Shown: in pieces, positions 51,406 through 63,040 of the stretch
How the letters are laid out: each line of letters begins with the position of its first letter
How positions within the stretch are numbered: the first letter of the stretch is position 1
From: Chloroflexota bacterium
GTDB lineage: Bacteria; Chloroflexota; Anaerolineae; Anaerolineales; Anaerolineaceae
Assembly (NCBI GenBank): GCA_021825925.1
Contig: JAKAFP010000010.1
Span: 1 to 64,000, forward strand
Direction: 5' to 3'
DNA length: 64,000 nucleotides
Position numbers and translations under genes: made by a program
The notes under the pieces: model-generated
What the model was told of the DNA's origin: nothing
Databases searched by the model: none
What the model saw: the letters and a program-made list of their open reading frames with translations, nothing else

Positions 51406-52332
51406 CTAGGCTTTGCGGTGATACTGGACGAACTCGCGGGTGCGGCTCATGCCGCTGCGCTCATAAAACTCCACGGCCTTCGGGTTGAGCGAGACCACGC
51501 CCAGCGCCACGGTGGGGATATCCTTCTGCCCAGCCAGGGCGAAAACCTGCTTCAAGAGCAGCGAACCGATCCCCTGCCCCTGCAGCTCTTTTGAGACCGC
51601 CAGCTCTTTGAGCCAGATGCGCGATTCTTCGTCGTAGCAGATGGCGGCGCCTACAAGTTTGCCCTCCAGATGCAGCATCAAGAACAGTTCGGGGTCGTAC
51701 CGGCCGCCGCGGAAGATCTGTTTGTGCCAGTCTTCAAAGGAGAGCGGCTGCACACCCTGCCAGTCGAAGGCCGCGGTGATCAGGTCATGCAGTGGGTGTT
51801 CGTCCGCGGGGGTGATGGGGGCAAGGGTGAACCCTGCCGGCCATTCAGACGCCGGGTGGGGTTTTGTGAAATCCATCTGCATGCGGTAGTGGAACTTTTC
51901 GACCGTGAAGCCGCGCGATTCATAGGCAGCACGGTTGCTTTGGTTCAACCCGTTGGCAAAGGCGGTGAGAATGCAATCCGGCTGGCTGGCGCCTGAGCGG
52001 ACGAGTGTGACAAAACACTCCACGGCCAGATCGAGCAGGGCTTCTGCCAGCCCCTGAGGGGAACGGCCGGTATGCAGGTAAAGGTCAAGATAGCGCCGGT
52101 CGTTGAACTCATCCGAGAGCAACGCGTAGCCGGTCAGTTCGCCGGCATCATTGGAGGCGATCCAGGCGTCGGCGGCAAGATCCGCCTCGGACCATTGGTC
52201 AGCCAGGTCGTCTTTATCTGAATCCTCTTCGCCGTACTCAGCAATGTCAGATTCGATCATGAAGTTGAAAACCCGGTCGAGATCGTCGGGGGAGGGATGT
52301 TGCAGATTAAAAGATAAAGAATCCGCTTTCAT
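51406..52332 (-). CDS. Tandem GNAT acetyltransferase
   Basis: A 308-residue protein with two GNAT folds. The N-terminal half is degenerate (FMIESDIAEYGEEDSD). The C-terminal half (about 165-308) keeps the acetyl-CoA site: KELAVSKELQGQGIGSLLLKQ with the QGQGIGS loop, then ALGVVSLNPKAVEFYERSGM. This two-GNAT layout resembles mycothiol synthase and related small-molecule acetyltransferases. It sits at the edge of the repeat-rich region; the ATG follows AAGGAT. The substrate is unknown. Confidence 0.78.
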   Translation of the reverse strand: MKADSLSFNLQHPSPDDLDRVFNFMIESDIAEYGEEDSDKDDLADQWSEADLAADAWIASNDAGELTGYALLSDEFNDRRYLDLYLHTGRSPQGLAEALLDLAVECFVTLVRSGASQPDCILTAFANGLNQSNRAAYESRGFTVEKFHYRMQMDFTKPHPASEWPAGFTLAPITPADEHPLHDLITAAFDWQGVQPLSFEDWHKQIFRGGRYDPELFLMLHLEGKLVGAAICYDEESRIWLKELAVSKELQGQGIGSLLLKQVFALAGQKDIPTVALGVVSLNPKAVEFYERSGMSRTREFVQYHRKA

Positions 52333-52344
52333 GGGGCATCCTTT

Positions 52345-52392
52345 CAGGGATAATCGGTGATTAGTGAAAAGTAATGAGTAATCAGGGATAAT
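52345..52392. repeat. AGTAATCAG-type repeat flanked by 10-bp direct repeats
   Basis: GTGATTAGTG (from 52357) leading to GAGTAATCAGG (ending 52386) repeats the motif seen at 49671 and 58932. It is bracketed by two copies of CAGGGATAAT (52345-52354 and 52383-52392), which could be a target-site duplication or a copy-number slip. Confidence 0.6.
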
Positions 52393-52480
52393 GCGAAAGG
52401 GTTACAGAACCATTGGAGGATCCTTTTGTTAGTCGGAATGAAATGATTATAAGGGAGAATTGTGCGGAATGTAATGCTGC

Positions 52481-52501
52481 GGGCAGGTCATGGACCTGCC
52501 C
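52481..52501. repeat. Palindrome of the GGGC...GCCCCTAC repeat family
   Basis: GGGCAGGTC (52481-52489) pairs with GACCTGCCC (52493-52501) and is followed by the constant CTACA tail. Same family as the palindromes between 53.9 and 55.8 kb. It lies just past the stop of the second tsf gene. Confidence 0.75.
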
Positions 52502-52511
52502 CTACAGTAGA

Positions 52512-53114
52512 TTACTCTTCTTCAGGAACGATCTCCCAGCGCAGAAAGCGGCGGATGACGATGTTCTCGCCGATCTGGGCGACGGTCTGCTGCTGCAGTT
52601 GGGCGATGGTGATGCTCTCGTCGCGGATGTAGGGCTGGCGCAGCAGCACGTTCTGATTCTTGAATTTCTCAACAGTACCCTCCACGATGCGATCAATGAT
52701 GGCCTGGGGCTTACCGGCTGCCCGCGCGGCGTCGGCGGTTTCGGCTTCCAGGCCGCTGATCACGCCGCAGGTGAGATCCGCGTCGGAGACGAAGAGCGGG
52801 TTGGACGAGGCGATCTGCAGCGCGACCTCGTGGGCAAAACGCCGAAAGACCTCGGAGGAGCTGGCAAATTCGGTCTCGGTGTTGACCTCGACCATCACAC
52901 CGATGCGCCCGTTGGCATGGTTATACAGTTCGATGATGCCTTCAGTGGCTTCATGGCTGGATCGCATGCGCGCATTCTCGGCGGCCTGCTCCCGCAGCAG
53001 TTCAAGCGCTTGGGGGTAATTCCAGTCGCTGGTCTCAAGCGCACGGCGGCAATCCATGACCATGGCGCCGGTCTCTTCGCGGAGTGTTTTGATTGTTTCG
53101 ATTGTGGTTTGCAT
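52512..53114 (-). CDS. tsf: Second elongation factor Ts, diverged orphan copy
   Basis: A 200-residue EF-Ts homologue. The N-terminal UBA-like part MQTTIETIKTLREETGAMVMDCRRAL and the end DESITIAQLQQQTVAQIGENIVIRRFLRW align well with the main copy at 43215. The core TDFV motif, SDFVGRSEVF in the main copy, is here TEFASSSEVF: Asp becomes Glu and Val becomes Ala in the residues that contact EF-Tu. The middle is more diverged (GIIELYNHANGRIGVMVEVN). It is not next to rpsB but 87 bases after a PadR gene, within repeat-rich DNA. It may be a conditional or specialised exchange factor, or be drifting; its reading frame is intact. ATG 53114 follows AAAGGTG. Confidence 0.88.
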   Translation of the reverse strand: MQTTIETIKTLREETGAMVMDCRRALETSDWNYPQALELLREQAAENARMRSSHEATEGIIELYNHANGRIGVMVEVNTETEFASSSEVFRRFAHEVALQIASSNPLFVSDADLTCGVISGLEAETADAARAAGKPQAIIDRIVEGTVEKFKNQNVLLRQPYIRDESITIAQLQQQTVAQIGENIVIRRFLRWEIVPEEE

Positions 53115-53134
53115 TTTATTCACCTTTTTATGAT

Positions 53135-53200
53135 GGGTGGGTCGCCCACTCGGTCTCAAAAATCGAGACTTCGGGGGCGCAAAGTTCGCGGGACCCACCC
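53135..53200. repeat. Long inverted repeat with TCGGGGGCGCAAAG insert, between PadR and second tsf
   Basis: GGGTGGGTC (53135-53143) pairs with GACCCACCC (53192-53200); inside are GTCTC/GAGAC and the conserved block TCGGGGGCGCAAAG (53171-53184). The same block occurs at 55571, 60252 and, nearly, at 63074. The constant CTAC follows the stem. Confidence 0.7.
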
Positions 53201-53743
53201 CTACAAATTACCTTCACTTATCGCCTTGCGCGTTTCGCTCGTCCACTGCAGTTCGGTCTGGGTGGCGAGGATGAAGTTGTCGGCGATGCGCCGCCAGAGG
53301 TAGGCTTCACGCGCTGTGCGGTGCGGACTGTTCTCGCGGCGCTCCGCTTCACCCTGCAGCAGTGAGAGGTGCGAGATCAGCTCCTGCTCGTAGAAATTGA
53401 GCAGGTCAAGCACCTCGTCGTCGGTCAGACAATCTGACCAGGCGAGCTGGATGAGGAAGCTCTTGGGCCAATCGGAGACCTGGGGCTTTTGCAGCAGACT
53501 CTGGCGCAGCACGGCGCGTCCCTGGTCGTTGATGGAGTAGATCTTCTTGGCCGGCAGGCTTTGCTGTTGCTGCACCTCGAAGCTCACCAATCCGTCGCGC
53601 TGAAGTTCGAGCAGCACCTTGTAGATCTGGTTGTTGTTGCCCGACCAGTAGAAGAGGTTGGAGTCCGAGATGATACCCTTGAGGTCGTAGCCCGAGAAGG
53701 GCTTCCAGCTCAGCAGGCCGAGGATGGTGGAGTGAAGGTCCAT
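53201..53743 (-). CDS. PadR family transcriptional regulator
   Basis: A 180-residue PadR-type repressor. The winged helix-turn-helix fills residues 1-85: STILGLLSWKPFSGYDLKGII, NNQIYKVLLELQRDGLVSFEVQ, then the wing KKIYSINDQGRAVLRQ. The remainder is the helical dimerisation/ligand region of the longer (Vir-type C-terminal) PadR class. A perfect 20-bp palindrome with the PadR consensus ATGT-N8-ACAT lies 35-54 bases before the start, so autoregulation is likely. The second tsf follows it on the same strand and may be co-controlled. The inducing compound is unknown. Confidence 0.9.
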   Translation of the reverse strand: MDLHSTILGLLSWKPFSGYDLKGIISDSNLFYWSGNNNQIYKVLLELQRDGLVSFEVQQQQSLPAKKIYSINDQGRAVLRQSLLQKPQVSDWPKSFLIQLAWSDCLTDDEVLDLLNFYEQELISHLSLLQGEAERRENSPHRTAREAYLWRRIADNFILATQTELQWTSETRKAISEGNL

Positions 53744-53777
53744 TTATTAGCGCGCCTTTATGTGGGTTATGTCGTAC

Positions 53778-53797
53778 ATATGTTATTAATAACATAT
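53778..53797 (-). promoter_or_regulatory. PadR operator palindrome
   Basis: ATATGTTATT (53778-53787) and AATAACATAT (53788-53797) form a perfect 20-bp palindrome containing ATGT-N8-ACAT, the published consensus for PadR and LmrR. It lies in the promoter region of the PadR gene. Confidence 0.8.
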
Positions 53798-53894
53798 TAA
53801 ACGGTTTAGGTCAAGAGCAATCTCACGCAGGCCGCTCGTAAAGGCAACTCGCGGCCGCAGAGGACGCAAAGAAAACCATTTTAAAAAGGATTTA

Positions 53895-54322
53895 GATAGC
53901 TATGGTAGGGGCAGGTCCGCGCGATCGTTGCGCCCCCAAGCTGTTTTTGTGAGAGGGGTGACCTGCCCAATAACGGTGCCGTAATGAAGAAATATAGATT
54001 CTGTGCGGTTTGTTGTGAACGAAGGCGATTCATCCCGTAAAGGGACACAACAACCGTGTGAATCACCCCTACCAGCCCCCCATTGCAGTAATTTGAACAC
54101 GACACATGATAGCCATGGTAGGGACACGGCGTGCCGTGTCCCCTAACGACGCCATGATGCTTGCATTTGGACGCGGTACGATTTGGTGTAAAGGCGGGCG
54201 AATGACTATTCGCCCCTACCAGCCCCCTATTGCAGTATTTTGGACACGACACATAATAGCCATGGTACGGGCGTCCTGCAGGACGCCCGTACAAGAAATT
54301 AAATTAGGTATTGTGGACTGGG
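53895..54322. repeat. Array of hairpin repeats with constant linkers, left block
   Basis: No gene is present between 53744 and 54380. Five palindromes are seen: GGGCAGGTC/GACCTGCCC (53909-53968, long loop), GGCGATTCA/TGAATCACC (54024-54068, one mismatch), GGGACACGGC/GCCGTGTCCC (54121-54142), GGGCGAAT/ATTCGCCC (54196-54215) and a perfect 28-bp one from GTACGGGCGTCCTG (54265-54292). The linkers between pairs (54069-54120 and 54215-54264) are nearly identical: CTACCAGCCCC, then TTGCAGTA, ACACGACACAT and TAGCCATGGTA. Stems differ from one another yet each is self-complementary. The frames open in this stretch are low-complexity artefacts. Confidence 0.8.
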
Positions 54323-54380
54323 ATCATTGAAAAAGTCGTATAATGTTTTTACGAATTTGTATCGTTAAGGAATGGTAAAA

Positions 54381-54590
54381 ATGGATGTTTCAACCTTATC
54401 TTCCAAGTTTCAAATTGTGATCCCCAAGGCGGTGAGAGAAAAGTTGAACCTGACCCCCGGTCAGAAGGTGGTGTTCATCCCCTACCGCAACAGTGCTCGC
54501 ATGGTGATCGTCCCAAGTGCGGAAGAGGCCTTCGGGTCGCTCAAGGGCATTGATACGACCATCGAACGCGACGAGGACGAACAGCCATGA
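54381..54590 (+). CDS. vapB: AbrB/MazE-type antitoxin
   Basis: A 69-residue SpoVT-AbrB swapped-hairpin DNA-binding protein: MDVSTLSSKFQIVIPKAVREKL then LTPGQKVVFI is the canonical double-psi hairpin. The acidic C-terminus (TTIERDEDEQP) is the toxin-binding tail. ATG 54381 is preferred, with AAGG 10 bases upstream; ATG 54372 is too close to it. It overlaps the PIN toxin gene by 4 bases (ATGA) and is expected to neutralise the toxin and autorepress the operon. The promoter lies in the hairpin-repeat block. Confidence 0.9.
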   Translation: MDVSTLSSKFQIVIPKAVREKLNLTPGQKVVFIPYRNSARMVIVPSAEEAFGSLKGIDTTIERDEDEQP

Positions 54591-54958
54591 TCGTGATTGA
54601 TTCGTCAGGGTGGATGGAGTTTTTTGCCGGGTCCGAGGTGGGGAGAAAGCTGCTGCCGTTCATTGAAAAGCCGCAGGAACTGGTGGTACCGGCGACCACG
54701 ATCTACGAGGTGTTCAAAAAGATTTTGCAGCAGCGCGACGAGGAAGAGGCATTGAGAGCCGCGGGTTTGATGTCCGCGGGGGAAGTGGTGGATCTGACGC
54801 GCGATCTGGCGATAGAGGCGGCGCTGATCTCAGCCGAGCACAAGCTGCCCATGGCCGACAGCATCATTTATGCCACCGCGCGCAACCATGATGCCGAAGT
54901 GTGGACGCTGGACGCGCATTTCAAAGGGCTGCCAGGGGTGGTGTGGTTGGAGAAATAG
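54587..54958 (+). CDS. vapC: PIN-domain toxin, VapC-like
   Basis: A 123-residue PIN ribonuclease. The acidic metal-binding residues are all in place: D5 in IVIDSSGW, E41 in IYEVFKK, D91 in LPMADSIIYATA and D109 in VWTLDAHF. VapC toxins cleave tRNA or rRNA when antitoxin is degraded. It is directly coupled to the AbrB-type antitoxin by a 4-base overlap. The pair is bracketed by two near-identical copies of a roughly 108-bp repeat (54213-54322 and 55394-55502). Confidence 0.92.
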   Translation: MIVIDSSGWMEFFAGSEVGRKLLPFIEKPQELVVPATTIYEVFKKILQQRDEEEALRAAGLMSAGEVVDLTRDLAIEAALISAEHKLPMADSIIYATARNHDAEVWTLDAHFKGLPGVVWLEK

Positions 54959-55292
54959 GGTTTTTTCTCGCAAAGACGCCAAGAGCGCAAAGAAAACCTT
55001 TAATGAAAAGAATAAAACGTTTGCATAAAAATTCGTTATTCGTTTAAATGCACGAATCGCCTTTTTAGGCAAAAGCCCATCTCAAAACGGATGACATTTT
55101 ATTCGTATTCGTTTCAGAAAAAAATTGGAAACAAAGAAAACGAATCACTTGTTAGTCGTTTTAGAAAAAACAATTAAAAACAATTCCATAAAAACGACTC
55201 GGACATGTTCAGCGCAATGGTATTCAGCTATTAAAGAACTGAAAACCGATAACACACCGATAAATTGGACGCACCTTTATTGGGAGATATAA
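54959..55292. other. Gene-free stretch with A/T-rich low-complexity DNA
   Basis: Starts with CTCGCAAAGACGCC followed by AAGAGCGCAAAGAAAA, a short repeat also seen in part at 53860. The rest is AT-rich with scattered TTCGTTTT-type half-repeats on either strand (55020-55200). No ORF longer than 20 codons on the transcript from the minus-strand promoter at 55293 looks convincing; a 14-codon frame reading MELFLIVFSKTTNK is open (minus strand, near 55190) without a clear ribosome site. The 80-codon minus-strand frame over vapC is a shadow. Confidence 0.4.
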
Positions 55293-55321
55293 ATATTAGA
55301 ATATATGTTCTGTTTTGTCAA
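55293..55321 (-). promoter_or_regulatory. Consensus promoter with GAAC-like box, no gene found downstream
   Basis: On the minus strand TTGACA (55316-55321) and TAATAT (55293-55298) are exactly 17 bp apart. The spacer contains AGAACATATATTCT (55298-55311), a GAAC-N4-ATTC palindrome one base from GAAC-N4-GTTC. Spacing of box, -35 and -10 is the same as in the promoter at 26631-26670. The transcript would run into the AT-rich stretch before vapC, antisense to it. Confidence 0.68.
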
Positions 55322-55370
55322 GGGTGGAAATATCCATGAGGAAGATTTTGGAGTAAAGCCTACTTAATGT

Positions 55371-55502
55371 TACCGAGGGCACAGCGCACTGTGCCCCTAC
55401 CAGACCCTCGTTGCAGATTTTTGGACACGACACATAATAGCCATGGTACGGGCGTCCTGCAGGACGCCCGTACAAGAAATTAAATTAGGTATGTGGACTG
55501 GA
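55371..55502. repeat. Array of hairpin repeats, right block (copy of the left one)
   Basis: GGGCACAG/CTGTGCCC (55377-55396) is followed by the constant linker (55396-55445) and then the same 28-bp palindrome as at 54265 (55446-55473). The tail with AAATTAGGTAT and GTGGACTGG repeats that after 54292. Over about 108 bases this block matches 54213-54322 with few differences. Confidence 0.82.
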
Positions 55503-55529
55503 TTACCAAAAAATCAAAAAGGCAAACCT

Positions 55530-55740
55530 GGGTGGGGATTCGCCCGACGCTCCGCATTCACTAAGATTGTTCGGGGGCGCAAAGGACGCGTCGCACCCTT
55601 CATTTAACCGTAATAGTCTGGGGCCTTGGCGGCTCGCAATACTGGCACCTGCTGCCTGTGCAGGTGTGACAGTTTAGGTGTAGGGTTATGGACGCCGTGC
55701 GGTTTGGCGTAAACGCGGGCGAATTGCCATTCGCCCCTAC
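55530..55740. repeat. Further hairpin repeats and TCGGGGGCGCAAAG block
   Basis: Contains TCGGGGGCGCAAAG at 55571-55584, CACCTGC/GCAGGTG near 55653-55675, and GGGCGAAT/ATTCGCCC (55717-55736) with the constant CCCTACCAGACCC. The hairpin is like the one at 54196 but with loop TGCC instead of GACT. No gene is seen up to 55914. Confidence 0.7.
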
Positions 55741-55851
55741 CAGACCCGTGTTGGGGATTTGTGGACTGTATTGCCAAAATATCAAAGATAGGTGCATCAA
55801 GTAAGCTTACAACGACCAAGATTTCACGACTCACTCTTAATATTCAGAAAT

Positions 55852-55860
55852 TGCTATAAT
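55852..55860 (+). promoter_or_regulatory. Extended -10 promoter of the AT-rich cassette
   Basis: TGC then TATAAT (55855-55860) forms a TGN-TATAAT extended -10, with no clear -35. The first cassette gene starts 55 bases further on, with AAGGGG as ribosome site. Confidence 0.6.
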
Positions 55861-55914
55861 GAATAATAAATATAGTAAAAATCACTAATTTTTAGTATTA
55901 AGGGGAAGATCATT

Positions 55915-57477
55915 ATGTCATATAAATATTCCGAACTTGATAACAGAAACTTACGATGGTTCCCCAGCGACGATACCCGTGCCACATTATTAACTATACA
56001 TGTCGATTCCGGAAAAATTCGTGGATTACAAAATCTAAGGATTGACTTTTCTTACCCTATTACCGCAATTGCTGGTAGAAACGGTTCAGGTAAGACCACT
56101 ATCATTGAACTTGCAGCTTGTGCATATCACAATACTGGAAAAGGTTTTAAATTATCTGGTCGGAAATACCCTTACTATACCTTTTCAGACTTCTTTTTTC
56201 AAACTTCTACAGAAGGTTCATTATCAGGCATAAAAATTAGATATCAATTTATTCACAATAAATGGCGTTCACCAAAAAATCCAGCAGGACGAATTGGACC
56301 AGGATGGCAAGAACGAATTAAAAGGCATGGCGGACGTTGGAATGATTATGATGGAAGAATTAAAAGAACTGTTGTTTACTTAGGGATCGATAGAACTGTT
56401 CCTCACTCAGAAAAAAGTGTAGCAAAGAGTTATAGAAAATTATTCGAACCAATGGTAGAGCGAGGTTGGGAATTAGAAGTAAAAGATGTAGTAGGTAGAA
56501 TTATGGGGAAAGATTATTCCACTTTTACATATATGGAACACTCAATTTACAGAATACCCATTGTTTCTAATTCAAATTTTACTTATTCAGGATTTAATAT
56601 GGGGGCAGGTGAAGGATCAATATTTGAACTCTTTTCAATTATTAGAGAGTGCCCAGATGGAACATTAATAGTAATCGACGAAATTGAACTTGGATTACAC
56701 GAAGATGCACAAACTCGATTAATTAATGAATTGAAAATAATTTGTGAACGAAGGAAATTTCAAATAATCTGCACTACACATTCACCTCGTATACTAGAAA
56801 GCCTACCTCCAGAAGGAAGGATATATCTAGAACCTATTGGTGAACAAACAAATGTAATAAAGGGTATTTCACCTGAATATGCAACCGGAAAACTCTCTGG
56901 GCGTAAATATTCCGAATTAGGTGTTTTTGTTGAGGATGAAACAGCAAAATTAATTGTTGAAAATTGTTTAACTGCAGAAATGAGATCTAGAATAGATATT
57001 ATTCCAATAGGCTCGGCAATTGGAGTAATGCGACAACTTGCAGCACGGTACAAAGAAAATGAACAATCAAAGATTTGTGTTCTCCTTGATGGAGATAAAC
57101 GCGTTACACATAACGACCAAGTTAGAGCATTTATTAATGCAACTGAAAAACCACAAAGTGAGATATTAACTGGTTGGGTTGAAAACCGAACAAATTATTT
57201 ACCAGGAACCGAATGGCCTGAACTATGGGTAATCAGGCAACGCAATGAAGAAATATATAAAAAACTTGCTGTTGAGTTTGGACTGGAATTCGAGAGACTA
57301 ATAGAAATTTTAGAATCCGCAGAACGAGCAGGGAAACACAATGAGTTTCACGAAGTAGCTCGCATCATTAATTTCAATCAAATTGTAGTCTCTTGCAGTT
57401 TAATAAAAGCAGCTCTTGAAACCAACCCAGAAGAACCTAAGATAATATTTAAATGGATTAACTCATTCTTAAATTAG
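55915..57477 (+). CDS. OLD-like ATPase with C-terminal TOPRIM-type nuclease domain
   Basis: A 520-residue ABC/SMC-like ATPase. Walker A GRNGSGKT is at 54-61, the ABC signature NMGAGEG near 228-234, Walker B LIVIDE at 251-256, and the H-loop TTHSP near 287-291. The C-terminal third starts ELGVFVEDETAKLIVENCL with E340 and contains CVLLDGDKR with D392/D394, the Glu and DxD of a TOPRIM domain. This is the layout of OLD-family nucleases (as in Gabija GajA) and of fused PARIS proteins. The DNA is AT-rich, unlike the housekeeping genes. No UvrD helicase follows, so it is not a standard Gabija pair. A DNA- or tRNA-directed nuclease triggered by phage is inferred. Confidence 0.78.
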   Translation: MSYKYSELDNRNLRWFPSDDTRATLLTIHVDSGKIRGLQNLRIDFSYPITAIAGRNGSGKTTIIELAACAYHNTGKGFKLSGRKYPYYTFSDFFFQTSTEGSLSGIKIRYQFIHNKWRSPKNPAGRIGPGWQERIKRHGGRWNDYDGRIKRTVVYLGIDRTVPHSEKSVAKSYRKLFEPMVERGWELEVKDVVGRIMGKDYSTFTYMEHSIYRIPIVSNSNFTYSGFNMGAGEGSIFELFSIIRECPDGTLIVIDEIELGLHEDAQTRLINELKIICERRKFQIICTTHSPRILESLPPEGRIYLEPIGEQTNVIKGISPEYATGKLSGRKYSELGVFVEDETAKLIVENCLTAEMRSRIDIIPIGSAIGVMRQLAARYKENEQSKICVLLDGDKRVTHNDQVRAFINATEKPQSEILTGWVENRTNYLPGTEWPELWVIRQRNEEIYKKLAVEFGLEFERLIEILESAERAGKHNEFHEVARIINFNQIVVSCSLIKAALETNPEEPKIIFKWINSFLN

Positions 57478-57570
57478 TCCATAACGGATAAAACTATTGC
57501 AGTGTTTGGTTTTAGCTATTGTAAACATACTTATTCGGCGTGAATTGGTTCAGATTTATTTGAAGTTATT

Positions 57571-57777
57571 ATGGCTACTTACAAAGAAATTCAAGCATGG
57601 ATGAAAGATAAATACTATTTTGTACCAAAAACTTGTTGGATTGCCCATGTAAAAAAATTATCAGGATTACAAGTTCGAAGAGCCCCAAACCGGATTGGTG
57701 ATCAACAATTAAATCCTTGCCCAGAAATTCATCTAGAACCAATAAAAGGGGCATTAAGATATTTTCACATGATTTAA
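57571..57777 (+). CDS. Short conserved basic protein of unknown function
   Basis: A 68-residue protein, MATYKEIQAWMKDKYYFVPKTC..., with the fragment TCWIAHVKKLSG and an end LEPIKGALRYFHMI. I recognise this as a widespread short family with pattern KTCWIAHxKE(L)xG then RxAPNR and NPCP, met near or fused to restriction or DNA-modification genes; this is from memory and unverified. No nuclease or methylase motif is visible in it. It follows the OLD-like gene by 93 bases and precedes the AbiU2-like gene by 60. There is no strong ribosome site, which fits the AT-rich foreign style of the cassette. Confidence 0.65.
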   Translation: MATYKEIQAWMKDKYYFVPKTCWIAHVKKLSGLQVRRAPNRIGDQQLNPCPEIHLEPIKGALRYFHMI

Positions 57778-57837
57778 TATAATGAATTGATAAACAATTT
57801 TGTGTTAATTATCAAGAAATGGAAAATAAAATAATCC

Positions 57838-58752
57838 ATGAATGATACAAAATCAGCTACTATTGAGGAATGTTGGATAATATGGAAAGATTGTCTCGGG
57901 GGTTCAGACAATAATTCAATTATTAATCAAATATTGTCTATGGTTTGGGATACTGGTGTTTATAAATTAATACTCGAAAGTCGCCAATTACGTATTAATG
58001 AGGAACCAAGAAACCCAAAAATCAATAATTCATTCCATTCATTTATTGATCGTAACTATTTTCAAAGCCTTGCTAGTTCAATCAGAAAAATAACAGATGA
58101 TCGATACTGCGTTTCAGGAAAGCGTGGAGTTTTTTCACTCTTATCATTAGTCTCAGACTTGAAAAAGCATAGATATGAAATAACCCGAGCAAAGTACTTT
58201 GAGTTAAGAGGATTAGAATATGATATCGAAATACTCAAAGAAAAAGAGTCAAAATACATTCGAGAAAATATTGAACACAGCTCAATGGCAATCAGCATTC
58301 CTCAAGAAATAACACCAGAAAGAAGTATAGAAGCCCATTGTTTGTTTGATAAATTTTGTGCCATCAATTTTGGGGATCGATCTCCATATGATCAAATAGA
58401 TCTTGAATTCCTAGAAAAATTAGAAAAACGGTTAAGTTCGAGTAAGAAAATATCAGGATATGTTGATAAATTTATTGCACATGCATCTAGCCCTGAAAGT
58501 AGACTTTTGGATGCTTATGAATCCTCAGTAATATTTATTAGTCAATGTTGGAAAATTCAAAAAGAAATTTGTGAAATTACTGACATTCTTGCATCATTTT
58601 TATTAGGTGTGAAATTCATGTTTTTGCCTTTAGAATCACCACACTACTTAAAATATATGGATATTCCATTAGTAGAATCTAAAAACATTAATCACATTCG
58701 GAATTGTTTTGAAAAATATCGCACTGAAACCGAACAATGGAAATTTGAATAA
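57838..58752 (+). CDS. Helical protein, possibly AbiU2/HEPN-like
   Basis: A 304-residue, all-helical, AT-rich gene product. SFHSFIDRNYFQSLASSIRKITDDR followed by RGVFSLLSLVSDLKKHRYEI resembles the AbiU2-type HEPN proteins, where an IRxLTDR-like helix precedes a second helical pair and a late K/DxxIAHA segment; here it reads VDKFIAHASSPESR. The canonical HEPN RxxxxH is not evident. Its two cassette neighbours suggest anti-phage function. The assignment is tentative; it could equally be a cassette-specific protein of unknown family. It ends 42 bases before the promoter of the pheS leader. Confidence 0.45.
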   Translation: MNDTKSATIEECWIIWKDCLGGSDNNSIINQILSMVWDTGVYKLILESRQLRINEEPRNPKINNSFHSFIDRNYFQSLASSIRKITDDRYCVSGKRGVFSLLSLVSDLKKHRYEITRAKYFELRGLEYDIEILKEKESKYIRENIEHSSMAISIPQEITPERSIEAHCLFDKFCAINFGDRSPYDQIDLEFLEKLEKRLSSSKKISGYVDKFIAHASSPESRLLDAYESSVIFISQCWKIQKEICEITDILASFLLGVKFMFLPLESPHYLKYMDIPLVESKNINHIRNCFEKYRTETEQWKFE

Positions 58753-58794
58753 AAACCACTCTTTGTTTTAAGTTATTTTAAGAAACAATACTGA

Positions 58795-58800
58795 TATAAT
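58795..58800 (+). promoter_or_regulatory. Promoter of the pheS T-box transcript
   Basis: TGA followed by TATAAT (58795-58800), an extended -10; no clear -35. The T-box RNA begins a few bases later. Confidence 0.65.
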
Positions 58801-58806
58801 ACCCAC

Positions 58807-59120
58807 ACAGGCAGTGACGGAGGAAAGTAGGCCGGACGAAACCGACAGGAACGCAGTTCATTAGCTGAGAGAGCTGCACGGTGGATAACGGGTGAAGTTC
58901 CCTCCTGAGTTGCTCGGGTGAAACCCTCGCGGTAATCAGTGATTAGTAATTAGTAATCAGGAAAAGCAAGGGCAAGTAGTCCGAGACGCATTATCCAGCG
59001 TTAGAGGGATGGCCAGTTTCGAGTGATGAGATTGGGTTAAGTGGGCCTCATTGAGGCCAAGCCGGGTGGTACCGCGGGAAATGTCTCCCGTCCCGATTTT
59101 TGGGATGGGTTTATTTTTTT
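58807..59120 (+). promoter_or_regulatory. T-box riboswitch leader controlling pheS-pheT
   Basis: Begins with the typical GACGGAGGAAAGTAGG, has stem-I features (GAACGCAG, GAGAGAGCTGC) and a candidate Phe specifier TTC at 58898-58900 in GGTGAAGTTCCC. The T-box core GGGTGGTACCGCGG lies at 59064-59077. The terminator is CCCGTCCC (59087-59094)/GGGATGGG (59102-59109) followed by TTTATTTTTTT. CGGGA (59075-59079) can pair with TCCCG (59086-59090) as part of the antiterminator. Uncharged tRNA-Phe should bind and allow transcription. A dispersed repeat is inserted at 58932-58961. Confidence 0.92.
58932..58961. repeat. AGTAATCAG-type repeat inside the T-box leader
   Basis: GTAATCAG at 58932-58939 and 58953-58960 flank TGATTAGTAATTA. 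It matches the repeat at 52357-52386 and the arms at 49671-49684. It sits between the stem-I region and the T-box core. Confidence 0.65.
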
Positions 59121-59138
59121 AATGTGCAGGAGACAAAA

Positions 59139-60209
59139 ATGGCAGAAGAAAATGTGCTGCAAGAACTTGAAGCCGCGCAGGCGGCCGGGCTGGCAAGCCT
59201 GAGTTCGGTTGAAACAGAAGAGGCGCTGCTGGCCTGGCGCAATCAATACCTGGGCAAGAACACGGCCATCACACAAGCCTTCCAGGCGATGGGCAGGCTC
59301 TCCGCGGAGCTGCGTCCGCAGGTGGGGCAGGCCGCCAACCGTGTGAAGGTGGCGCTGGAGACGGCGTTGGCCGAGCGTACCGAAAGCATCAAAGAGTCCG
59401 CGCTGGCGGCCTCGATCGCCAAGGAGAAGCTGGATGTGACCCTGCCGGGTCGTCCGCTCAACCCCGGGCGGCTGCACCCCGACACGCAGATGCTGCGCGA
59501 ACTCTATCGCGTCTTCGGCGAGATGGGCTTTCAGGTCTATCGTTCGCGCGAGGTCGAAACGGACGAGTATAACTTCCAACTGTTGAACTTCCCCGTCGGG
59601 CATCCCGCCCGCGACATGCAAGACACTTACTTTGTGGAGGCCGGCGAGCGCGGTGACAATCCGATCGTGATGCGCACGCACACCTCCCCGGGTCAGGTGC
59701 GTTCGATGCGCGAGTATGCGGCCACCAACCCCGAGAATCCCCCCGCCATCCGCCTGGTGCTGCCAGGCATGTGCTACCGCTACGAACAAACCGACGCGCG
59801 CCACGAGACCCAGTTCGACCAGATCGAAGGCATCGCGGTGGGCGAAGGCATCACCTTCAGCAACCTGAAGGCCACGCTCTCCGACCTGGCCCGCCGCCTT
59901 TTCGGACAGAACGTGCGCACCCGCTTCAGGGCGAGCTTCTTCCCCTTCACGGAACCCTCCGCGGAGTTCGATGTGGAGTGCTTCTTGTGCGGCGGCAAGG
60001 GCTGCCCGGTGTGCGGTGGCGGCTGGCTTGAGATCGGCGGCTGCGGCATGGTCAACCCCAACGTGCTGCGCAACGGCGGCTACGACCCCGAGCGCTACAG
60101 CGGTTTCGCCTTCGGCCTTGGTCCGCAGCGCATCGCCATGCTGCGCTACGGCATCAACGACATCCGCTATTTTTGGGATAATGATCTGAGATTTTTGGAA
60201 CAATTCTAA
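59139..60209 (+). CDS. pheS: Phenylalanyl-tRNA synthetase alpha subunit
   Basis: Catalytic subunit of the (alpha-beta)2 PheRS. An N-terminal coiled-coil tRNA-binding arm covers about residues 1-90. Class II motif 1 region LPGRPLNPGRLHPDTQMLRELYRVF, motif 2 PGMCYRYEQTDARHETQFDQIEG and motif 3 GFAFGLGPQRIAMLRYGINDIR are present. The FGQNVRTRFRASFFPFTEPSAEFDVEC block is diagnostic. ATG 59139 follows AGGAG by 7 bases; the frame open from 59100 lies in the T-box terminator. 356 aa. Expression is set by the T-box. Confidence 0.97.
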   Translation: MAEENVLQELEAAQAAGLASLSSVETEEALLAWRNQYLGKNTAITQAFQAMGRLSAELRPQVGQAANRVKVALETALAERTESIKESALAASIAKEKLDVTLPGRPLNPGRLHPDTQMLRELYRVFGEMGFQVYRSREVETDEYNFQLLNFPVGHPARDMQDTYFVEAGERGDNPIVMRTHTSPGQVRSMREYAATNPENPPAIRLVLPGMCYRYEQTDARHETQFDQIEGIAVGEGITFSNLKATLSDLARRLFGQNVRTRFRASFFPFTEPSAEFDVECFLCGGKGCPVCGGGWLEIGGCGMVNPNVLRNGGYDPERYSGFAFGLGPQRIAMLRYGINDIRYFWDNDLRFLEQF

Positions 60210-60224
60210 GTAACGAGAGCAGAG

Positions 60225-60290
60225 AACTGACCCCTCTCGCCGTTTCACGGCTCGGGGGCGCAAAGGTCGCGGAACCGAGAATCGTCAAAA
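60225..60290. repeat. TCGGGGGCGCAAAG repeat between pheS and pheT
   Basis: CTGACCCCTCTCGCCG followed by TCGGGGGCGCAAAG (60252-60265) and GTCGCGGAACCGAG. A close relative begins at 63050 after pheT. The 290-base gap between pheS and pheT also has an inverted GAGAAT/ATTCTC-rich segment (60395-60430) but no gene or terminator. Confidence 0.6.
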
Positions 60291-60499
60291 TCTGACGGTT
60301 GATATTGAAAAGTGATGAAAATTGAGTTATGAAAAAAGTAAACAAAAAAACGGATCAATCGGAAGTGGAGAGAAACGAATCGAAAAACTAACCGGTTTTG
60401 ACGGTTCTCTATTCTCTACTCACGGTTCTCATATAAATTACGAATGCCCTTAAATTCATAGGCTCATGAAATGAAACTCGAGCAAATTGGAGTAAACAA

Positions 60500-63040
60500 A
60501 TGAAAGCCCCTTTATCCTGGATCAAAGAGTTTGTTGACATTGACCTTCCGCTGGCGGAACTGGCGCACCTGATCACAATGGCCGGCATGGAAGTTGAGGA
60601 AGTAAAGATCATCGGTCTGCCCATGCCCGCACCCGGTACGCTGGACGCCAAGGTTACGGGTCTCGCGTGGGACCGCGAGAAGATCGTGGCCGCCTCCATC
60701 AGCGAGGTGCTGCCCCACCCCAACGCGGACCGGCTGACGCTGTGCAAGCTGTTTGACGGCGAACGCGAGCACCTGGTGCTGACCGGCGCGCCAAATTTAT
60801 TCGAATATAAGGGCATCGGTCCGCTGGCCAAACCGCTGATCGTTGCCTATGCGAAAGAAGGCGCCCAGATCTACGACGGACACGCCGAAGGGCTGGTGCT
60901 GACCACCCTCAAGCCCGCCAAGATCCGCGGCGTGGACTCGTACTCGATGGTGTGCTCCGAGAAGGAGCTGGGCATCTCTGACGAACACGAGGGCATCATG
61001 TTCCTCGCGGATGACGTCAAGCCCGGCACACCGCTGGTGGATGTTTTGGGCGACGCGGTGATCGAGGTCAATTTGCTGCCCTCCTTCGCACGCTGCGCCT
61101 CAATGCTCGGGTTGGCGCGCGAGATCGCGGCCATCACCGGCAAACCGCTCAAGCTGCCCAAATGGGATGAACAGCCGCCCGCCGGTAAAGCGGATTTCTG
61201 CAGCATTGAAATTACCGAACCCAAGAATAATCCGCGCTTCATGGCAGGTCTGGTGCGCAACGTCAAGATCGGCCCCAGCCCTGAAGTTGTGCAGCGCCGG
61301 TTGAAGATGTACGGCATGCGCCCGATCAACAACATCGTGGACGCCACCAACTATGCCATGCTGGAACTTGGGGAACCGCTGCATGCCTTTGATTACGACA
61401 AACTCGTCAAGCGGGCTGGCGGCAAGCCGGTCAAGATCATCACCCGCGCCGCCCAAAAAGGCGAATTGATCAAGACCCTGGATGGCGTGGAACGCAAGCT
61501 CGACACCTTCTCGACATTGGTGTGCGACGAGGCGGGGTCACTCTCGATCGCCGGCATCATGGGCGGTGAAGAAACCGAAGTGACCGAAGCCACCACCAAC
61601 GTGCTTCTGGAAGGCGCCGTCTGGAACATGATCAACATCCGCAAGACGGCCAAAGCACAAAACCTGAACTCCGAAGCCTCCTACCGCATGTCGCGCGGGG
61701 TGCACCCGGTGATGGCGGAACACGGCCAAAGGCGCTGTCTGGAATTCATGCGTGCCTGGGCGGGCGGCGAAGTGGCTCCCGGCCTGGCGGATTCGTATCC
61801 GCTGCCGGTGAAGAACCCGACTGTGGAAGTGACCGAAAAAGACGTGAAACGCTGGCTGGGGATTGACATCCCGGCCTTGAAGATGGCCGAGTTGTTGGCC
61901 CGACTTGAGTTCAAGGTGGAAGTGAGCGGCACATCCGTCAAGGCGACCTGCCCTGATCACCGTCTGGATATCAACGAGGGCGTGGTGGGCAAGGCCGACC
62001 TGGTGGAAGAGATCGCCCGCGTCTATGGTTACGATAACATCCCCGAGATGCGCATGGCCGATACCCTGCCCCCGCAGATCGGTAACCCTGTGCTGGTCAA
62101 GGAAGAACGCATCCGCGACCTGCTGGTGGCAATGGGGCTGCAGGAAGCCATCAGCTACCGCTGGTCCACGCCCGAGCGCGAGGCAAAACGCCTTTCGCCC
62201 GATGCCGAACAGGATAACAAACCTTACGTAAAGATCGCCAATCCGTTGGCGTATGAAAAAGCCTTTTTGCGCCACAGTGTGCTGGCGAGTGTGATGGACG
62301 TGGCCGAGCGCAATTCGCGCATCCGCGAACGGCTGGCCTTTTTTGAAATAGGCCCGATCTTTTTGGCCGGCGAGGACCCCAGCGGTCTGCCGGACGAGTT
62401 GAAACGCCTGGCGGTGGTGCTGGGCGGCGCACGCTCCGTATCAGGCTGGCAGCCTGCCGACACCACCGCCATGGATTTTTACGACCTGAAGGGCGTGGTG
62501 AACGGTCTGCTGCAGGGCCTGCGCCTGCCGGGCGTTAAATACGAAGCCGGCGAGCATCCCAGTTATCACCCGGGCAAGTGTGCGCGGGTGTTGGTGGGCG
62601 ACAAACAGATCGGCGTGATGGGCGAGCTGCACCCCAAGGTGAAGGGCAATTACGACTTCCCCGCCACGTTCAAGGCGCCGGTGCTGGCGGCCGAGTTTGA
62701 CCTCGACCTGCTGATCGAGCTAGTTCCTGCCCTTTACCAAACCGTGGATGTGCCGGTATTCCCACCAGTGATCGAAGATCTAGCCTTCATCCTGGATGAG
62801 GACCTGGCTGCCGAGAAGGCCGAAGCTTTGATCCGTCAGACGGGCGGCAAGCTGCTTGCAGATGTGAAGCTTTTCGACATCTTCCGCAGCGAGCAGATCG
62901 GGGCGGGCAAGAAGAGCCTGGCCTACAAACTGACCTACATCGCCCCCGATCGCACCCTCGAGGCCGCCGAGGTGGCCACCCTGCGCAACAAGATCATCAA
63001 GCGCATGGAGTACGAGTTCAAGGCGAAGTTGAGGGGATAA
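60500..63040 (+). CDS. pheT: Phenylalanyl-tRNA synthetase beta subunit
   Basis: 846-residue PheRS beta subunit. The N-terminal tRNA-binding EMAP/B2 domain is present (residues about 45-160), followed by B3/B4 editing region (GLVRNVKIGPSPEVVQRRLKMYGMRPINNIVDATNYAMLELGEPLHAFDYDKL), the B5 fold, then the catalytic-like core with SYRMSRGVHP and the C-terminal anticodon-binding (FDX-ACB) domain from about 755. GGAG is 8 bases before the ATG. It is 290 bases after pheS, separated by a dispersed repeat, unusual because most pheST pairs are nearly contiguous. Confidence 0.96.
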   Translation: MKAPLSWIKEFVDIDLPLAELAHLITMAGMEVEEVKIIGLPMPAPGTLDAKVTGLAWDREKIVAASISEVLPHPNADRLTLCKLFDGEREHLVLTGAPNLFEYKGIGPLAKPLIVAYAKEGAQIYDGHAEGLVLTTLKPAKIRGVDSYSMVCSEKELGISDEHEGIMFLADDVKPGTPLVDVLGDAVIEVNLLPSFARCASMLGLAREIAAITGKPLKLPKWDEQPPAGKADFCSIEITEPKNNPRFMAGLVRNVKIGPSPEVVQRRLKMYGMRPINNIVDATNYAMLELGEPLHAFDYDKLVKRAGGKPVKIITRAAQKGELIKTLDGVERKLDTFSTLVCDEAGSLSIAGIMGGEETEVTEATTNVLLEGAVWNMINIRKTAKAQNLNSEASYRMSRGVHPVMAEHGQRRCLEFMRAWAGGEVAPGLADSYPLPVKNPTVEVTEKDVKRWLGIDIPALKMAELLARLEFKVEVSGTSVKATCPDHRLDINEGVVGKADLVEEIARVYGYDNIPEMRMADTLPPQIGNPVLVKEERIRDLLVAMGLQEAISYRWSTPEREAKRLSPDAEQDNKPYVKIANPLAYEKAFLRHSVLASVMDVAERNSRIRERLAFFEIGPIFLAGEDPSGLPDELKRLAVVLGGARSVSGWQPADTTAMDFYDLKGVVNGLLQGLRLPGVKYEAGEHPSYHPGKCARVLVGDKQIGVMGELHPKVKGNYDFPATFKAPVLAAEFDLDLLIELVPALYQTVDVPVFPPVIEDLAFILDEDLAAEKAEALIRQTGGKLLADVKLFDIFRSEQIGAGKKSLAYKLTYIAPDRTLEAAEVATLRNKIIKRMEYEFKAKLRG

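Follow-up and report, generated by a model that had tools for sequence, protein, structure and literature searches.

The stretch analysed here occupies positions 55915-58752 of a 64,000-nucleotide window (the whole piece of DNA examined) from a Chloroflexota bacterium of the Anaerolineaceae (contig JAKAFP010000010.1), and carries three open reading frames (ORFs) arranged head to tail on the plus strand: gene 1 (55915-57477, 520 residues), gene 2 (57571-57777, 68 residues) and gene 3 (57838-58752, 304 residues). An earlier, sequence-only reading had described this arrangement correctly and had proposed that the three genes form an undescribed anti-phage module. Our results point elsewhere: quite probably, the stretch is accessory DNA that lies upstream of the T-box leader of pheS, in a hotspot for defence genes, and its three genes travel separately, gene 1 encoding a stand-alone defence protein of IbfA/HEC-04 type. 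What looked like a new multi-gene system would thereby be reassigned to a known single-gene type and a wrong module avoided. The analysis also yields a close clade (41-61% identity) that belongs to the little-studied IbfA/HEC-04 kind and offers many solitary copies in nature, and a core-gene site upstream of pheS at which defence-like genes, several without annotation, vary within the genus.

Gene 1 matched the PADLOC profile HEC-04 over nearly the full length of both (expectation value (E) 6.9e-56, residues 32-517 aligned to positions 32-487 of 494), ahead of weaker matches to the retron profile ATPase-Toprim_I-B (4.6e-32) and to AriA and PtuA, and it exceeded the Pfam gathering scores of AAA_21 and AAA_15, in agreement with its previous description as an OLD-like ATPase-TOPRIM protein. 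The motifs listed in that description are all present, namely Walker A (GRNGSGKT, residues 54-61), Walker B ending at D255-E256, E340 and D392xD394, and they are conserved in the family: K60, E256, H289 (H-loop), E340 and D392 were kept in 49/49 aligned rows, and D394 in 48/49. These rows, also used for the phylogeny, are the window and 48 of 52 relative loci (8 from viral contigs and 44 from reference genomes, in 44 genomes), four having been dropped because their ORF was not over 450 residues. We place gene 1 in a single-gene kind already known, the IbfA/HEC-04 type, of which it is a new and diverged member.

Identity between gene 1 and its genome relatives was 41-61% at 41 of the 44 loci and 32-35% at the other three, with nine cyanobacterial loci being the closest (53-61%). 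In a maximum-likelihood tree of the 49 rows, the window sequence grouped with eight cyanobacterial rows (support 100/100), and the gene was present in only one of 16 same-genus genomes (own genome counted); this placement and this restricted presence therefore indicate transfer of gene 1. The horizontal transfer anticipated by the earlier reading is borne out. The DNA has a foreign, AT-rich composition: the three-gene stretch is the most AT-rich of 306 segments of 2838 bp in the window, with a guanine-plus-cytosine (GC) content of 0.333, the next-lowest value for a non-overlapping segment elsewhere being 0.428 and that of the whole window 0.495. GC content was 0.353 in gene 1, 0.333 in gene 2 and 0.311 in gene 3. 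Across the class, gene 1 was found in 4 of 249 genomes (own counted), the three others being partial matches of 30-36%. A scan of viral contigs with gene 1 as single query gave no relative, and an alignment query found 52 gene 1-like loci there, 8 of them close (43-45% over residues 1-447 or more) and the other 44 more distant or short. A phage collection held no match at 1e-10, and E. coli genomes contained nothing close to a prophage-borne copy. Some match at 1e-5 occurred in 868 plasmid records, including 543 from Escherichia and 212 from Salmonella; on an IncI plasmid with the ibfA gene order (two small ORFs, the ATPase and ProQ), the ATPase and gene 1 share 28% identity across residues 47-426.

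No credible relative of gene 2 or gene 3 was found within ~5 kb on each side of gene 1 (less at contig ends) at any of its 52 loci, and the co-occurrence expected of a three-gene module thus failed as far as tested. Neighbours varied from locus to locus: the 88 adjacent proteins at 47 loci (five near-identical prophage copies left out) represented 86 Pfam families in all, and the commonest of these occurred in 4 proteins. Since no partner is conserved across the 52 loci, we consider gene 1 to be solitary and, by context, a class 1 OLD protein as defined in the part of PMC10568477 consulted. Among the 44 genomes in which gene 1 has a relative, a relative of gene 3 turned up in one and a relative of gene 2 in another, each on a contig separate from that of gene 1. 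Apart from the window's own, no genome of the 249 in the class combined any two of these genes, and among the 128 loci collected more than one of the three occurred only in the window's own locus and its overlaps. A gene 1-gene 3 pair was rejected, as no joint locus was seen. A 39-residue piece resembling a Sphingomonas relative of gene 3 (locus L131, E 0.005) lies antisense inside an alaS-like ORF and was taken as chance, as was a 17-residue piece of gene 2 (L149, E 0.25). Seven near-identical prophage-like copies of gene 1 adjoin an integrase, in agreement with the prophage cargo positions reported in the excerpt of PMC9122126 available to us. tRNA-synthetase genes also adjoin relatives elsewhere, with gene 2 next to aspS in genome G074 (L021:5003-5206, by reading) and gene 1 next to alaS-like ORFs in several cyanobacteria (L129, L131).

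According to the sections of PMC12111858 seen, ibfA from an IncI1 plasmid encodes a 518-residue ATPase-TOPRIM homologue of HEC-04 that, cloned alone, lowers the efficiency of plating of a P22-like phage, and HEC-04 is active on T4 and T5. Gene 1 shares with these proteins, the one borne by IncI plasmids and the other an Hma-embedded candidate, a whole-length profile match, the domain order, the size (520 residues versus 518-523) and the solitary action reported for ibfA, but is only ~28% identical to the IncI protein, and the clade nearer to it (41-61%, at 41 of the 44 genome loci) resides in chromosomes or prophages; no report of testing for this nearer clade came up, a dedicated search not having been made. 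Because of the IbfA/HEC-04 reports, the IncI homologue and the conserved catalytic residues, a defence function is likely for gene 1 and the most probable of its conceivable roles, as the previous reading had supposed. In the phage defence that we infer, together with its trigger and substrate, the ABC-type ATPase head would be the sensor of a signal tied to infection, whether DNA ends, nucleotides or a phage protein. On binding or hydrolysis of ATP, the TOPRIM two-metal nuclease would be allowed to cleave nucleic acid, and phage yield would fall or the infected cell would stop.

Other known systems resemble gene 1 less closely. Class 1 OLD proteins (P2 Old and the T. scotoductus OLD 6P74) equally combine an ABC ATPase and a C-terminal TOPRIM domain in a single gene, but the sequence similarity of gene 1 to 6P74 is confined to the Walker B region (residues 221-294, 4.4e-8). 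Gabija GajA, the retron I-B ATPase-TOPRIM protein and PARIS AriA/AriB have a related ATPase, whereas no gene for a helicase, for a reverse transcriptase or for a separate TOPRIM protein was seen adjoining gene 1. The genes that do adjoin it are gene 2, gene 3 and a MazE/PIN pair; no neighbouring ORF suits the reverse transcriptase of a retron I-B (class 3 OLD), whose ncRNA likewise had no counterpart among the Rfam hits in 54000-60500 at gathering scores, and genes 2 and 3 gave no TOPRIM or AriB match in Pfam or PADLOC.

The right edge of the cargo lies at 58753-58795, where, at the pheS promoter's -10 box (58785-58795), homology to the three closest relatives restarts. It is followed by a fixed flank, the T-box leader of pheS (58805-59098, plus strand; Rfam RF00230, 96.6 bits), and by pheS itself (59100-60209, plus strand), a core gene that marks the site and was matched in 13 of the other 15 genomes of the genus. 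The site was read in nine of these, and five of the nine carry accessory genes within ~5 kb upstream of the T-box, all different; these five are also the nearest to the window by pheS identity (77-94%). In G249 the cargo is an orthologue of gene 2 followed by an AT-rich gene of 355 residues, and in G261 it is a DUF4236 protein with two larger AT-rich unknowns. G258 combines an AT-rich gene of 782 residues at the T-box with a pair similar to PD-Lambda-2 A/B (1.1e-40 and 2.7e-135) located ~3 kb upstream of that leader, and G263 has a HigBA-like pair ~1.5 kb upstream (antitoxin helix-turn-helix (HTH) domain by Pfam-type scan, toxin by reading) with an unscanned 327-residue ORF in between. Finally, G256 carries, at the T-box and directly before pheS, an SLFN_AlbA_2-NB-ARC-TPR protein of 785 residues (GC 0.35, L049:1478-3835). 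The remaining sites contain rpsB-tsf-pyrH-like genes instead (G252, G254 and G259) or other genes of which none is defence-like by look (G262), all named by reading. The locus upstream of pheS is probably a small defence hotspot. It recalls cDHS1 of Pseudomonas aeruginosa, where varying defence genes likewise occupy a fixed core locus, also near pheS/pheT, but which, in the portion of PMC10250203 consulted, differs in its flanking genes (merR side), organism and size, the cargo here lying a few kb upstream of the pheS promoter.

Several proteins at these sites deserve mention in their own right. The SLFN_AlbA_2-NB-ARC-TPR protein of G256 has a bacterial NLR-like architecture. AT-rich proteins without clear family (782, 323 and 202 residues) and a DUF4236 protein (489 residues) are encoded at two pheS sites of relatives (L047:1648-3996 and L045:1817-4910), the 323-residue protein having an RNRFVH stretch that is HEPN-motif-like by eye. 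No third PD-Lambda-2 component was recognised at the G258 site; defence by that system needs one, according to the part of PMC9519451 seen. Four same-genus pheS matches (L026, L027, L030 and L032) contain one or two in-frame stops, which may be alignment ends or assembly errors.

Gene 2 belongs to an unannotated phage-borne family (phrog_27283) that is widespread, occurring in phages, in plasmids and as fused domains, and that forms a question separate from that of gene 1. Its structural model has three helices and weakly resembles LacI-type HTH heads (Foldseek, 32 matches, none with E < 0.001), with no match among solved structures. Three of the 249 class genomes and two of the 16 genus genomes contain it (own genome counted). 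The second genus genome, G249, holds the orthologue (65% identity) at the same pheS site, 46 nucleotides before the unrelated AT-rich gene of 355 residues, and gene 1 was not found in that genome, so the comparison with a related strain also spoke against the proposed module. The 355-residue product gave no Pfam, PADLOC or NCBIfam match; by eye it has a stretch, NPDFEF...IIIEAKTF, which we take to be PD-(D/E)XK-like. In G145 the gene 2 domain shares one ORF with a ParE/RelE toxin domain (L020:4705-5361; PF05016, 1.7e-6). A single-query scan of viral contigs with gene 2 found no relative, and an alignment query worked. We read gene 2 as a putative small HTH-like protein of phage origin that is not an obligate partner of gene 1 or gene 3. 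In the record of streptococcal phage YS162, a RumA-like rRNA methyltransferase carries the gene 2 domain at its C-terminus (L006:1423-1635).

Gene 3 matched Pfam HEPN_AbiU2 at E 2.3e-4 and 21.2 bits, under the gathering cut-off of 26.8, and its relative on a Sphingomonas plasmid was also under it (21.0 bits). A Pseudomonas violetae relative (L177) exceeded the cut-off (40.4 bits) and matches gene 3 at E 4e-12, which upholds the earlier comparison to AbiU2. L177 was the sole protein found in the 44 gene 1-bearing genomes by a profile of gene 3 and the Sphingomonas sequence, and it has an integrase gene on one side and a gene with a (primase-like) TOPRIM domain on the other, on a contig other than that of gene 1. 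The best relative of gene 3, at 26% identity, is cargo adjoining an integrase; over the alignment, gene 3 is 20-23% identical to its two relatives. The gene was confined to its own genome among 249 class genomes and, by profile search, among 301 genomes of the phylum (the 16-genome genus counts were made for genes 1 and 2), and neither a single query nor an alignment found relatives in viral contigs. The HEPN catalytic motif is Rx4-6H, and the corresponding positions read V-D-K-F-I-A-H in gene 3, A-D-K-V-F-A-H in Pseudomonas and R-H-K-I-I-A-H in Sphingomonas, the arginine being kept in Sphingomonas alone. Gene 3 is homologous to a protein over the Pfam cut-off but itself differs from AbiU2 in lacking the motif arginine and in scoring below that cut-off. 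AbiU2 is a HEPN family, and where the canonical motif is missing, variants may rely on different residues or be limited to nucleic-acid binding (PMC3710099, in the part consulted). A single-sequence model of gene 3 was all helical and too poor for use or structure search (predicted local distance difference test score 35.5), and matches to solved structures had E 0.18 or worse and were taken as chance. We read gene 3 as a distant HEPN-like relative of AbiU2 that is probably an abortive-infection effector or else an RNA-binding variant that has lost the catalytic arginine.

Gene 2 could instead serve the gene directly downstream as a small antitoxin or repressor of HTH type, making genes 2 and 3 a toxin-antitoxin-like pair beside an independent gene 1. 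We regard this as unlikely. Its position shortly before a nuclease-like gene in G249, its fusion to a ParE/RelE domain in G145, the faint LacI-type likeness of its model, and the overlap of the Sphingomonas gene 3 relative with an upstream 146-residue ORF annotated as a DNA-binding protein would all suit such a role, whereas gene 2 stands before aspS in G074, the Sphingomonas and Pseudomonas relatives of gene 3 have no adjoining gene 2, and no toxin was recognised beside gene 2 in the viral loci readable by eye, without a profile search, its neighbours there appearing by eye to be terminase-region, tape-measure, portal or S-adenosylmethionine synthetase genes. A broader conjecture, which we also hold to be rather doubtful, is that gene 2 is a portable HTH-like regulator or antitoxin module set before or fused to different effectors by mobile elements, the pheS T-box site being a swap locus where gene 2 stays and the effector is exchanged; the effectors would then include HEPN-like gene 3, the nuclease-like gene of G249, the ParE toxin of G145 and the RumA C-terminus of the streptococcal phage.

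The view that the three genes are one co-selected anti-phage module, so far captured once only, accords with their common strand, shared AT-richness and short gaps, but has become very improbable, as two of the three are adjacent in no other genome seen (128 loci, 52 gene 1 loci and 249 class genomes) and in G249 gene 2 is accompanied by a different gene at this site. We give just as little credence to the idea that they are remnants of a degraded prophage or satellite, functionless today: relatives of gene 1, gene 2 and the Pseudomonas relative of gene 3 have all been found in phage-like elements, yet the three ORFs are intact, gene 1 keeps every catalytic residue checked, and no integrase or structural phage gene was noticed on reading the ORFs of 52000-62000, five of which were scanned with Pfam.

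Several points weigh against a hotspot holding separately travelling genes with a solitary defence protein among them. Eight of the 52 gene 1 loci come from viral contigs, seven of these being near-identical, and contig ends truncate some loci. At the pheS site, four genomes (G250, G253, G257 and G260) were unread, several relatives' contigs end near the site, and the toxin-antitoxin-type pairs of G263 and G258 lie at some distance from the T-box and not right at it. HEC-04 is inactive on T7 and lambda, and the IbfA paper itself holds a statement against ATPase activity (both in the sections of PMC12111858 seen), so that a sensor-nuclease mechanism is conjectural even for the studied member. 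For gene 3, the family match is below cut-off, and its own partners are hard to judge because there are just two relatives. A local regulatory link among the head-to-tail genes is possible.

The intergenic gaps, of 93 nucleotides between genes 1 and 2 and 60 between genes 2 and 3, leave no evident tight translational coupling among the three. The sequence-only reading had also credited the cassette with its own extended -10 promoter and weak ribosome sites. The extended -10 sequence is there by eye (TGCTATAAT, 55852-55860), but promoter-like sites in the stretch are at chance level (14 versus 13.4 expected from shuffled DNA); as to the ribosome sites, that of gene 1, AGGGGA, 8 nucleotides 5' of the ATG, is not weak.

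The location of this AT-rich DNA between a repeat-rich block and the T-box was described accurately. At gathering scores, an Rfam scan of 54000-60500 found nothing besides the T-box. To the left of the three genes, further cargo at the site consists of a MazE-fold antitoxin and PIN-domain (VapC-like) toxin pair (54372-54958, plus strand; Pfam MazE_antitoxin 1.9e-10, PIN 4.4e-18), which is flanked on both sides by the repeat block (54065-55766, no strand), made of diverged repeats of ~80-100 nucleotides and two copies of a 28-nucleotide palindromic element. The palindrome is perfect, lies inside the repeats at 54265-54292 and 55446-55473, and related repeats are present at the pheS site of G261, possibly forming a family of the miniature inverted-repeat transposable element or repetitive extragenic palindromic type.

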